Origin: Haloarcula taiwanensis
Lineage (GTDB): Archaea; Halobacteriota; Halobacteria; Halobacteriales; Haloarculaceae
Assembly (NCBI GenBank): GCA_002844335.1
Contig: CP019154.1
Span: forward strand, 1,240,001-1,304,000
Reading direction: 5' to 3'
DNA: 64,000 nt
Position 1 is the first letter of the stretch; each line of letters begins with the position of its first letter. The notes under the pieces are model-generated. The model ran no database searches. It had not been told where the DNA came from and saw only the letters and a program-made list of their open reading frames with translations. This document shows, piece by piece, positions 20,496 through 24,131 of this stretch. The translations under genes were made by a program, and so were the position numbers.

Positions 20496-22580
20496 ATGAC
20501 TCTAACCTTCGAACCGCTTGACGACCGTCCGGGACTCGCGGTCATCGACCAGATAGAGCGCCAGCGCTACCGGATACACACGCCCGCTCCCATCGCGCTC
20601 AGGGACGCCGCGACCGACGTGTTCCAGTATCCCGTCGGGGACGCCGTCCGGATACGGACCCAGGCCATCGAACTCCCGACGGTCGTTATGGTGTACGTCC
20701 GTGACGACGACGGGGCGATAGCCGCTGAGGTCGCACAGTTCGAGTCGGAGACGCTGCCGTCGGACGATTACGTACTGGACCCGCTGACGCAGATAAAGAC
20801 ATATATGCGGGTCGAGGACGCCCAGATTGCCGTCACCGTCGACTCGGACCGGACCCGAATCGAGTTCGATTCCCCGACGGACGTGCTCATCGGCGCTCGG
20901 TCCCAGCACGACCGGCCCGCGGCCGCGGTCACGACGACCAAGGACCCGACCGACATGATGGCCGCTGTCGAGACCTTCGGGTCGGCGCTCAAGGCCTACG
21001 ACCCCGAGCGCTCCTATCCAACGCTTCGCGGCCACCCCCCGGCGCTTGAGATCGGTGAAACGCTGGACATCCCGGCGGCTATCGACAGTCCGGACACCGG
21101 TGTCACGCTCGAACTTCCGCCCAATCTCGCGTCGGTTTTCGTCGCCGCACCGCTCTCGTACTACCTCGGAGCCTCGCTCGTCCCCGCATCCGAACCGCGG
21201 CTGACGACCGACACCGGATTTACCTACTCGCTCGACACAGCACGAGGCTTCGAATCCGAGGTCGGACGCACGCTCAAACGCCTGTTTTTCCTCGACTGTG
21301 TCACGCGCACGGAAGGATTCCATCAGATAGACCTGCACGAACGGGCGGCCATCGAACCGTACGTCGACCTCGACTTCCAATCGCTGTATCAGCAGCCGCT
21401 AGCGGAGCAGGTCGCCACCTATCTGCAGGTCCCGTACGACGTTATCGAGGACCACATTCCGAAGTGGCGACTGACGACCCACATCGACCCGGTGCCGGCG
21501 AACGCGGAACAGCTCCCGTATGTCGTCGACGACCTCGCCATCGTCCGGACACACCAGCAACAGCGGCTGAACCAGGCGAGCGTTCCGGCGGAGGTCGAGG
21601 CCGAGTTCACTCGTGATGATGTCATCACCCGCGCTGCGAGTTCCGACACTGCCACCGCCGCAACCGAGACGGACTACGTCGAACCGCAGGCCGAGGACTC
21701 ACTGGAACAGGCCTGGATTGGGGACAGTATCCCAATCGGTGCGAGCAAGCTAACCAAAGCAGCGTTCGAACACCGGCTTGACCGCGACACGAACGCCGAG
21801 GACATCACGATTCGCGTCGTCCAGAACGACGCCCGGATGGATGAGGAACGACAGCTCGTCGACGACGTGTATGGCACCCGCGACGACCTGCCGTTCGATG
21901 TCACGGTCCACGACGACCTGACGACGGCGGAGCTCAGAACAGTTCTCACGACCGACGCGGAGTTCTTCCACTATATCGGCCACACCGAGCATGACGGCTT
22001 CGTCTGTAGCGATGGCAAACTGGACGTGACGACGGTCGACTCGGTCGGCATCGACACGTTCCTGCTGAACGCCTGCAACTCCTACAATCAGGGATTGGTG
22101 CTCGTCGAAAAGGGTGCAATCGCTGGCATCGTCACGCTCAACGAAGTTCTGAACGACGGCGCAGTTCGCATCGGTGAGACGGTCGCACGGCTGCTGAACT
22201 GCGGCTTCCCCCTTCGCGCGGCGCTTACCATCGCACGCGGTGAGAGCGTCCTCGGTGGTCAGTATATCGTGGTTGGTGATGGGGGAGTGACAGTTGCACA
22301 GACAGATGGTGGGATGCCAAACCTGCTTGAATTACAAACTACTGAAACCGGTTATACTGTAGAAATGAATGTATACTCGACGGACGGAAATGCGTTAGGC
22401 GCTATTATGTACCCGCATATCAATAAGTCTGAAGAACATTATTTAGTTCCGGGCAAAATTGACAGTTTCAGTGTAAATTGCGAGGAATTAATAGATTTTC
22501 TAGAGATGCAACAGATACCGGTCCGATATAAAGGCGAACTGCATTGGAGTGACTCAGTAGATATAGATTCTATAAATTGA
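20496..22580 (+). CDS. CHAT-domain (caspase-like) cysteine protease
   Basis: 694 residues from ATG 20496. The C-terminal part carries a CHAT peptidase: the catalytic His is seen in FHYIGHTE (His496) and the catalytic Cys in FLLNACNSY (Cys527), followed by the GLVLVEKGAIAGIVTLNEVL core. The N-terminal 440 residues contain no TPR or other domain I recognise. The last 90 residues, after an insertion-like boundary near 22300, are encoded in AT-rich DNA with Ile/Asn/Lys-rich codons, unlike the GC-rich body. CHAT proteases in bacteria and type III-E systems cleave partner proteins in defence or programmed cell death. The convergent peptide gene 70 bp downstream is the obvious candidate partner. Confidence 0.85.
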   Translation: MTLTFEPLDDRPGLAVIDQIERQRYRIHTPAPIALRDAATDVFQYPVGDAVRIRTQAIELPTVVMVYVRDDDGAIAAEVAQFESETLPSDDYVLDPLTQIKTYMRVEDAQIAVTVDSDRTRIEFDSPTDVLIGARSQHDRPAAAVTTTKDPTDMMAAVETFGSALKAYDPERSYPTLRGHPPALEIGETLDIPAAIDSPDTGVTLELPPNLASVFVAAPLSYYLGASLVPASEPRLTTDTGFTYSLDTARGFESEVGRTLKRLFFLDCVTRTEGFHQIDLHERAAIEPYVDLDFQSLYQQPLAEQVATYLQVPYDVIEDHIPKWRLTTHIDPVPANAEQLPYVVDDLAIVRTHQQQRLNQASVPAEVEAEFTRDDVITRAASSDTATAATETDYVEPQAEDSLEQAWIGDSIPIGASKLTKAAFEHRLDRDTNAEDITIRVVQNDARMDEERQLVDDVYGTRDDLPFDVTVHDDLTTAELRTVLTTDAEFFHYIGHTEHDGFVCSDGKLDVTTVDSVGIDTFLLNACNSYNQGLVLVEKGAIAGIVTLNEVLNDGAVRIGETVARLLNCGFPLRAALTIARGESVLGGQYIVVGDGGVTVAQTDGGMPNLLELQTTETGYTVEMNVYSTDGNALGAIMYPHINKSEEHYLVPGKIDSFSVNCEELIDFLEMQQIPVRYKGELHWSDSVDIDSIN

Positions 22581-22650
22581 GCGTTTCAACTAGCCAGCAA
22601 TGCATCCACTGTGAAGGGAATTATTCAACTGAGTTTATTAGTTCTAGTGT

Positions 22651-22782
22651 CTATGGCCCGGGGTAAGCACTGTTATTAGCTGCCGCAGTCCCCGCCTGTG
22701 ACAGTAGCAGCAGGAGGGTGAACAGCGCGCCGGTCATTTTTGGGTGCTCTGCGAGGTATTCGCGCATGGTGGTATCTGACAT
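22651..22782 (-). CDS. 43-residue peptide with signal-peptide-like sequence next to the CHAT gene
   Basis: ATG 22782 to TAG 22651. An N-terminal MSDTTMREYLAEHPKM segment precedes a hydrophobic core TGALFTLLLLLSQAG and a small-residue end TAAA followed by NNSAYPGP. The pattern reads as a signal peptide with an A-x-A cleavage site leaving eight residues, or as a single-pass membrane peptide. An AT-rich TATA-like block (22811-22820) lies 28-38 bp upstream. I recall similar tiny haloarchaeal proteins (possibly DUF7503, unverified). Its convergent position beside a CHAT protease suggests a substrate, signal or toxin role; this is inference. Confidence 0.65.
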   Translation of the reverse strand: MSDTTMREYLAEHPKMTGALFTLLLLLSQAGTAAANNSAYPGP

Positions 22783-23186
22783 GATACAACTTCGATGATG
22801 GCGGGGAGATAATTAAATTTATTTGAAAAGTACCTACATATTATATATTGTATTAAGCATAGAATTAACAGTCAAATCCAGAAACTAACATCCACAAGAC
22901 TGGAATCGCACGTTTAGAGGAAAGTAGCGCACGAACCGGTCGTGCGTACACATGAGAGGGAACCAGCGATACCCCCATCAGTAGCGTTTAGTAGCCAAGT
23001 ATGTAATTGATAATCAGGGTCTAGTATTAATGTATGAATGGAAAATAGCTGATAACTATCTGAGAGATACACGTCCTGCTGGTTCGCTCCGGGGGTCGGA
23101 CGCAGGGCGGATGTATGCGGCAATCGCTACCAGTTTGATGGAATGGCTGCTTGCTGGCGGCTTTGTCGACACCACCCGGAGGAAGG
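22783..23186. other. AT-rich gene-free stretch of about 400 bp
   Basis: No credible coding frame on either strand. It holds the promoter-like block of the 43-residue gene, TATA-rich repeats at 22840-22860, and the hairpin CGCACGA-5 nt-TCGTGCG at 22928-22946. Base composition is the lowest in GC of the window together with the end of the CHAT gene, indicating a foreign or rapidly changing segment. Confidence 0.5.
22928..22946. repeat. Hairpin with 7-bp stem and 5-nt loop
   Basis: CGCACGA ACCGG TCGTGCG is a perfect inverted repeat in the AT-rich gap. No T-run follows on either strand, so terminator function is doubtful; a structured RNA or protein site is possible. Confidence 0.4.
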
Positions 23187-24131
23187 ATGACTTCTGAGGA
23201 GCAGTGGCGGCTCGGAGACAAGACAGTTGAGCTGTCCAGTGCGGTCATCAGCGGCAGCCGCCGCGCGGCAACGCGCCATACACCGCTTCTCCGGACGGAA
23301 TCAGTGGACCGACGCGACGAGCTGCGGACAGAGGTTCCGGTTCCACTTGCGAAAGTCGAGCAGCCTCAGGAGTGTACGGTGTTGCACGTCGATGATGATC
23401 CGCAGGTCGGTGAGCTGGTCGAGATGTATCTCGAACGCATCAACGACAAGTTCGACGTCGTTACCAAGACCAGCGCCGTCGCTGCGCTTGACGTCCTCCG
23501 GAGCGAGCAGGTCGACTGTATTGTCAGCGATTACGATATGCCAAACACCGATGGACTGGAGTTTCTAGAACTCGTCCGTGAGCAGTATCACGACATCCCA
23601 TTTATTCTGTTTACCGGCAAGGGCAGTGAAGAGATAGCCAGCGAGGCAATCGCGTCGGGCGTCACGGACTATATGCAAAAAGGAGGGAGGTCAGACACGT
23701 ACGATGTCCTGGCCAACCGAATCGAGAATGCTGTCGAACAACATCGCACCGAACAGCGGTTCTGGAACGCCCTCTCGTGGTATCAGCGGCTCGTTGAACA
23801 GGAGCTTGCGGGCGTCTGTATCATTCAGGACGGGGCGTTTGTCTACGTGAACCAAAAGCTAGCTGATATTTTCGGCTATGACCAGAGTGAACTCATCAAC
23901 GAGTCTCCGGCCCTCCTCACGGCGGAAGGCGACGGCGACAGACTACCTGAGTCACTCCGAACAGCAGAGTCAGACGAGCTCGATACGTTCCACTCGGAGT
24001 TTGAGGGGCGACAGGCCGACGGTGAAACGCGTCCCATCGAAGTATCCGGCGGGTCGATTGAGTACGACGGCGACCCGGCGTGGATAGGCGTGCTCCGAGA
24101 CGTCAAAAGCAATCCCGGTACTGGCGAGTAA
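23187..24131 (+). CDS. Response regulator receiver with PAS domain
   Basis: 314 residues from ATG 23187, which has an unusual strong Shine-Dalgarno GGAGG 4 nt upstream; a TTG at 23151 lies further up. After a 60-residue leader the REC domain shows HVDDDP (acidic pair), the phospho-acceptor Asp in VSDYDMP and the conserved Lys in FTGKG. A PAS domain follows (about 200-310; GVCIIQDGAFVYVNQKLADIFGY). No kinase or DNA-binding output domain is present. It resembles the many haloarchaeal orphan REC-PAS signalling proteins. No cognate kinase is adjacent, and it lies beyond the AT-rich gap next to the CHAT gene. Confidence 0.82.
   Translation: MTSEEQWRLGDKTVELSSAVISGSRRAATRHTPLLRTESVDRRDELRTEVPVPLAKVEQPQECTVLHVDDDPQVGELVEMYLERINDKFDVVTKTSAVAALDVLRSEQVDCIVSDYDMPNTDGLEFLELVREQYHDIPFILFTGKGSEEIASEAIASGVTDYMQKGGRSDTYDVLANRIENAVEQHRTEQRFWNALSWYQRLVEQELAGVCIIQDGAFVYVNQKLADIFGYDQSELINESPALLTAEGDGDRLPESLRTAESDELDTFHSEFEGRQADGETRPIEVSGGSIEYDGDPAWIGVLRDVKSNPGTGE

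Follow-up and report, generated by a model that had tools for sequence, protein, structure and literature searches.

A shared hypervariable cassette joins a CHAT-fold protease gene and a convergent DUF7503 micropeptide gene in haloarchaea: a possible cognate recognition module

Introduction

Peptide-receptor pairs of the RRNPP kind are defined by a propeptide of 10–100 aa whose gene adjoins that of its receptor (PMC10075063). In Rap-Phr and in the arbitrium pair AimR-AimP, the propeptide is hydrophobic in its N-terminal part and closes with a short, variable tail, the two genes are adjacent, paralogues are numerous, and there are copies on plasmids as well as orphan receptors, all of which recurs in the haloarchaeal pair described here (PMC10075063, PMC5199041). 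Its 43-aa peptide has the size and the position of an RRNPP propeptide. The proposed receptor, a 694-aa protein in which Pfam detects no TPR, falls outside the range of RRNPP receptors (250–500 aa with TPRs), and since it is too long and TPR-free, the pair is not an RRNPP system. It further differs by the caspase fold of the receptor, by the convergent order of the genes and by its archaeal host.

Another group of related systems is built around CHAT proteases. The TPR-CHAT protease of the type III-E Craspase and SAVED-CHAT have the same fold and catalytic dyad as the haloarchaeal protease, as judged by Foldseek, and Craspase with Csx30 offers a dedicated, mutually specific partnership to which the present pair can be likened (PMC11106740). 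CHAT-type proteases linked to bacterial gasdermins likewise combine a caspase-like protease with a possible membrane-active protein. In the haloarchaeal pair, the partner is instead a 43-aa peptide encoded on the opposite strand, whose tail is proposed to be read; DUF7503 is far too small for a gasdermin, and the peptides of other clades have no membrane helix. No CRISPR parts, TPR or SAVED were found in Pfam and PADLOC scans, and the neighbours polX and DUF5788 are stable. Thus, as a partner of either described kind is absent, the pair is neither a Craspase nor a CHAT-gasdermin system.

In the polymorphic agr and ComQXP loci, a hypervariable stretch across the adjoining ends of neighbouring genes sets cognate specificity, and the products of these tandem genes are a processing enzyme and a membrane kinase. 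The cassette reported here also spans adjoining gene ends, but differs in gene order and in the types of product. While its components are of known kinds, its architecture is matched by no known kind that was tested or that we could name, and we regard it as a new system. The family name of the peptide, DUF7503, is already known, and the Pfam entry gives no function. Within a search of mainly open-access journal papers, no paper was found on DUF7503 or on the CHAT domain with haloarchaea or Halobacteria, and no description was found of a CHAT-DUF7503 pairing or of a shared cassette; both the pairing and the specificity cassette are apparently undescribed.

Results

The window analysed here is a stretch of 64,000 nucleotides of Haloarcula taiwanensis (contig CP019154.1, positions 1,240,001 to 1,304,000). 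Both reading frames of the pair lie where the initial annotation had placed them, with 70 bp between the two stops. The protease gene (20496..22580, forward strand) was assigned from its ORF, an AlphaFold2 model and Foldseek matches. The model, calculated from 29 sequences, has a pLDDT of 87 and a pTM of 0.87, and matched SAVED-CHAT (E 1.7e-7), separase, gingipain, TPR-CHAT and caspase-3 in the PDB. The protein combines a caspase-haemoglobinase fold, by Foldseek on the model, with the His/Cys dyad, two features of CHAT/caspase-clan proteases. Conservation and fold place the CHAT/caspase domain at residues ~396–600 (21681..22295, forward strand), with the catalytic residues, assigned by homologue conservation, in the motifs HYIGH (His496, codon 21981..21983, forward strand) and LNAC.S (Cys527, codon 22074..22076, forward strand). 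The dyad first noted in this one protein is exact in its positions and is kept in 66/69 homologues, the remaining three forming a single diverged branch. By sequence, the 694-aa protein found no match in Pfam, NCBIfam, PADLOC or the PDB, and the absence of a recognised sensor repeat was borne out by the same searches. The Pfam CHAT profile PF12770 did not match the window protein and gave 0.18 for one relative.

The N-terminal half (residues 1–355; 20496..21560, forward strand) is conserved across the family and consists of a beta-sandwich (residues ~3–135) followed by an alpha/beta region. Against the PDB, Foldseek returned only weak GH31-like matches for this half (TM ~0.2), and for that reason it is not claimed as a known sensor. 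Long alignments with gingipain and separase had suggested that the N-terminal region is a pseudo-caspase, an idea that Foldseek of this half likewise did not support.

The peptide gene (22651..22782, reverse strand) encodes 43 residues that match Pfam DUF7503 (PF24335) with 79.4 bits against a cut-off of 27 (E=1.5e-22). It evolves under purifying selection, with a pN/pS of 0.23 over 24 orthologues and of 0.07 among the 14 closest, so the peptide, whose lack of conservation would have undone the initial proposal, belongs to a conserved family; the Pfam match and this conservation rule out a chance ORF. Its N-terminal segment with YLAEHPK (residues 1–16; 22735..22782, reverse strand) is conserved in DNA between the window and its congeners (0.77–1.0). 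It is followed by a hydrophobic helix that ends in A-x-A and is predicted to be N-in (residues 17–35; 22678..22734, reverse strand), and by the tail NNSAYPGP (residues 36–43; 22654..22677, reverse strand), in which variable residues precede an invariant Gly-Pro. Among DUF7503 peptides the helix is strongly conserved, with F21 and Q29 invariant, and K/R number 2.1 before and 0.02 after it. This charge bias suggests that the N-end lies inside and the tail outside. Upstream, a promoter region with a BRE/TATA-like block (22783..22857, reverse strand; TATA-like at ~22810–22819) is kept in the 24 orthologues, and in other families a comparable A/T-rich block stands equally far upstream.

The two genes, originally paired on the strength of one locus, are found together in other genomes. 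DUF7503 occurs in 337/394 genomes of Halobacteria (73/86 genera), and also in Haloferax volcanii, one of the controls. In 24 multi-copy genomes, 84/85 DUF7503 genes are convergent with a CHAT gene less than 1 kb away, mostly at a spacing of 7–60 bp, which puts the pairing beyond chance; the lone unpaired gene is near a contig end, at a distance of 634 bp. The peptide stands at the 3' end of the CHAT gene in the first 60 relatives, and the eight congeners without the peptide are also missing the matching CHAT copy. A single genome can have as many as 13 CHAT copies, and the gene was found on 25 haloarchaeal plasmids. At the 24 loci of the window's own genus, polX and DUF5788 are neighbours in every case and a response-regulator gene in 23. 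In the window this response-regulator/PAS gene lies past the peptide promoter, at 23151–24131, and it is kept beside the pair in related genera too.

Several associations were considered and set aside. Neither the CHAT protein nor the peptide has relatives among IMG/VR viral contigs, and no CHAT was found in phage genomes, which speaks against a viral origin or viral decoys; a known defence system was rejected in the absence of a PADLOC match. An upstream operon partner was also dropped, as a DUF7504-like gene lies directly upstream in just 8/158 loci and not in the window. Such genes occur on the same strand as CHAT at L211, L215, L216, L219, L058, L060, L091 and L212 and could provide signal input; PF24336 was confirmed in L216 and L219, and L219 carries a HalOD1 output domain. 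An intact DUF7503 beside a CHAT gene with an apparent in-frame stop was seen in G393, G197, G349, G206, G178 and G014, and these CHAT copies may be pseudogenes or sequencing errors. In another class of the same phylum (G417, G426, G435, G444; loci L261–L264), distant homologues have neither HYIGH nor a credible GP peptide; they share a neighbourhood and are apparently inactive. A link between dyad loss and peptide loss was abandoned, the independent losses being too few to count.

The peptide type of the window is one of several. A second, paralogous CHAT clade (~34% identical) has convergent micro-genes with unrelated bodies. The micro-peptides of Halorussus and Haladaptatus have the form MRGKIRQWF...xGP, and those of Haloferacales the form LARHPRA...SATAGP. 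Those of Natrialbaceae are polar and for the most part basic, lack a membrane segment, have poorly conserved bodies and end in AKRVSTYGGP. Basic peptides are unusual for halophiles with acid proteomes. These Natrialbaceae peptides (L101–L137) mirror DUF7503, in that a variable, mostly basic middle is followed by seven constant residues, VSTYGGP, often after KR or ER; an N-terminal MG....LW is frequent. At least 23 loci have a 4-bp interlock of the CHAT and peptide stop codons. Some CHAT-linked peptides, of ISTYSGP types, lie 78–81 bp from CHAT, and others overlap its stop by 4 bp (L223, L142).

A C-terminal Gly-Pro runs through all of these types. When frames of at least 20 codons, convergent and within -60 to +500 bp of the CHAT gene, were counted against a background rate of 0.85%, a GP-ending frame was present at 136 of 183 non-redundant dyad-intact CHAT genes, compared with ~14 expected. 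Forty-five of 49 distinct DUF7503 peptides end in GP, and within the own genus the GP codons show no amino-acid change (pN=0) at a pS of ~0.7. The tail is the sole element common to all peptide types, so that this dipeptide takes the place of YLAEHPKM, which the initial annotation had offered as a general marker.

The most variable part of the locus is a single AT-rich cassette (22296..22677, no strand assigned), delimited by identity, distances and its border. It comprises the last ~95 residues of the protease, the DNA between the genes and the final ~8 codons of the peptide, and is flanked by the conserved protease body and the peptide helix. Between the window and close congeners, DNA identity is about 0.85–0.93 over protease residues 1–600 and 0.84–1.0 over the peptide N-terminus and helix, and 0.2–0.85 from residue ~601 through the gap, where it reaches its minimum, to the tail. 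The border is sharp and lies at a GDG motif, and GC falls there from 0.63 to 0.39 in the window and from 0.705 to 0.436 in a second genus (that of G038). The hypervariable C-terminal domain of the protease (residues 601–694; 22296..22577, forward strand), the proposed reader of the tail, was delimited by this drop in GC and identity, by pN/pS and by co-variation with the tail. Its pN/pS is 0.43, against ~0.1, and its pS is 0.75, against 0.33–0.42 elsewhere. In both genera, the CHAT C-terminus reaches distances of 0.50–0.58 versus 0.05–0.17 for the body, and the tail 0.39–0.57 versus 0.03 for the peptide body; the values of the second genus are 0.58 versus 0.17 and 0.57 versus 0.03.

The two ends of the cassette vary together. 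In partial Mantel tests, which correct for phylogeny incompletely, tail distance was correlated with C-terminus distance given the body at r 0.51 (n=13, P 0.0004) and 0.36 (n=24, P 0.0002), and in the second genus at r 0.26 (n=29, P 0.0008). When the conserved peptide body was used in place of the tail, the test was null. Identical tails, such as NNNIYIGP in three species, are accompanied by very similar protease C-termini. Cassette swapping between genera was seen at 0/24 loci of the window's genus.

A prediction made in advance was that a C-terminus that reads the tail would show no hypervariability at loci with a constant tail or with none. The window's own genome has a second CHAT paralogue outside the window (G000:C1:1531345-1533006; L081), which is conserved in the genus, retains the dyad, has no GP peptide and has a C-terminus that is not hypervariable. 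Within the genus, this peptide-less copy shows a C-terminus distance of 0.11 at a caspase-domain distance of 0.05 (mid-protein 0.10) and a flat GC (0.662/0.667), whereas the peptide-bearing copy shows 0.49 at 0.04. With the constant tail VSTYGGP, no excess was found at 14 Natrinema-type loci (C-terminus 0.24 versus mid-protein 0.28) or over all close Natrialbaceae pairs (0.28 versus 0.32), while Halorussus and Haladaptatus, with variable tails, have a C-terminus excess (0.47 versus 0.27). Given the co-variation, and given C-termini free of excess variation wherever the tail is constant or missing, it is probably the C-terminal domain that reads the tail. The proposed pair, CHAT with a small membrane or secreted peptide, is genuine, conserved and apparently undescribed as a two-gene system, but the sensor role assigned to the N-terminal 440 residues was not supported: the family as a whole conserves that half, and it is the C-terminal ~95 residues that co-vary with the peptide.

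Discussion

Our leading interpretation, held tentatively and at slightly less than even odds, is a cognate protease-micropeptide recognition module in which the tail is read by the C-terminal ~95 residues and probably serves as a ligand that controls the protease. The peptide would be expressed from its own promoter, and a peptide of the window's type, with its A-x-A-ending hydrophobic segment and N-in charge bias, would enter or cross the membrane with its N-end inside and leave a short tail. The recognised element would be this tail, variable residues and then the invariant Gly-Pro, and its reader the hypervariable domain of the CHAT protease. Through the convergent order, lock and key would come to lie side by side in one short DNA cassette, so that new specificities would arise and be inherited together. 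Binding of the tail would most likely control or aim the protease, in the manner of a self-marker or pheromone-like ligand, comparable to the exported pheromones of Rap-Phr or arbitrium, and the protease would act on other targets.

An alternative is that the tail serves as a docking site from which the protease cuts its own peptide, freeing a membrane-active helix, as with gasdermins or Csx30, for regulated death or antiviral defence. This protease-substrate pair, which we consider possible though rather unlikely, would account well for the intact dyad of peptide-bearing CHAT copies, for the strong conservation of the helix with its invariant F21 and Q29, and for a peptide that is almost never found without CHAT; known CHAT proteases also have dedicated partners, mutually specific in Craspase/Csx30 (PMC11106740). 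It sits poorly with the Natrialbaceae peptides, which have poorly conserved bodies and no membrane helix at all, with the conservation of intact peptide-less CHAT copies in the same genus, with the lack of any cleavage site that every peptide type conserves and with the absence of a PADLOC match. The ligand reading is favoured, tentative as it is, because the tail is the one element that all types share, because CHAT copies without peptide exist while peptides without CHAT are practically absent, and because there are many paralogues. Some observations count against the ligand model as well: conservation of the helix in different families exceeds the needs of a simple export signal, the Natrialbaceae peptides have no hydrophobic segment, and an outside tail facing a protease without a signal sequence would require re-import, retention or contact before insertion.

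The main caveat is that the tail and the C-terminus are encoded side by side, and their co-variation could reflect linkage without contact. On such an account, an improbable one in our estimate, there is no specific recognition: an AT-rich junction is relaxed or prone to recombination, as the raised synonymous divergence of the C-terminal region would also suggest, and the peptide serves the protease as an unvarying anchor in the membrane or as an accessory. Against it stand a GP that is invariant at the protein level within a variable stretch, a C-terminus still under constraint, hypervariability that is restricted to variable-tail clades and absent from the same-genus paralogue, and the lack of between-genus swaps in the window's genus. 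The paralogue control argues against co-variation by linkage only, and falls short of a proof of contact. Least probable of the readings weighed is a toxin-antitoxin pair, in which either the protease disposes of a membrane-toxic peptide or the peptide inhibits a toxic protease. Two convergent, multicopy genes with plasmid copies bring such pairs to mind, and cognate specificity is common in them; still, the genes are convergent rather than operonic, and dyad-intact CHAT without a linked peptide occurs, as do peptides beside a CHAT with an apparent in-frame stop. With both single-gene states represented, as far as these apparent stops can be trusted, the fit to the usual toxin-antitoxin expectation is poor.

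Over ten years ago, caspase-like activity was measured in several archaea, among them Haloferax volcanii, where it was high, and a ‘lack of gene homologues’ was noted (PMC3615174). A caspase-fold family that retains its dyad and is near-universal in haloarchaea is now at hand, and it could be a genetic source of this unassigned activity; this is a lead only, as cleavage after Asp is not a given for relatives of CHAT.

A hypervariable cassette with a dedicated micropeptide is the kind of arrangement expected for cognate recognition. An annotation blank, composed of DUF7503 and a ‘hypothetical protein’, is thereby turned into a testable lock-and-key system, and a reason is proposed for the convergence of the genes. 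It is conceivable, though we think it somewhat doubtful, that each species and paralogue holds a private pair of tail and C-terminus, as an archaeal system of polymorphic self-recognition or peptide communication that works through a caspase-type protease. If true, this would be the first such archaeal system, with a protease that answers its own peptide only, and in nearly all haloarchaea it would control a response to stress or conflict, or one that concerns fusion compatibility.
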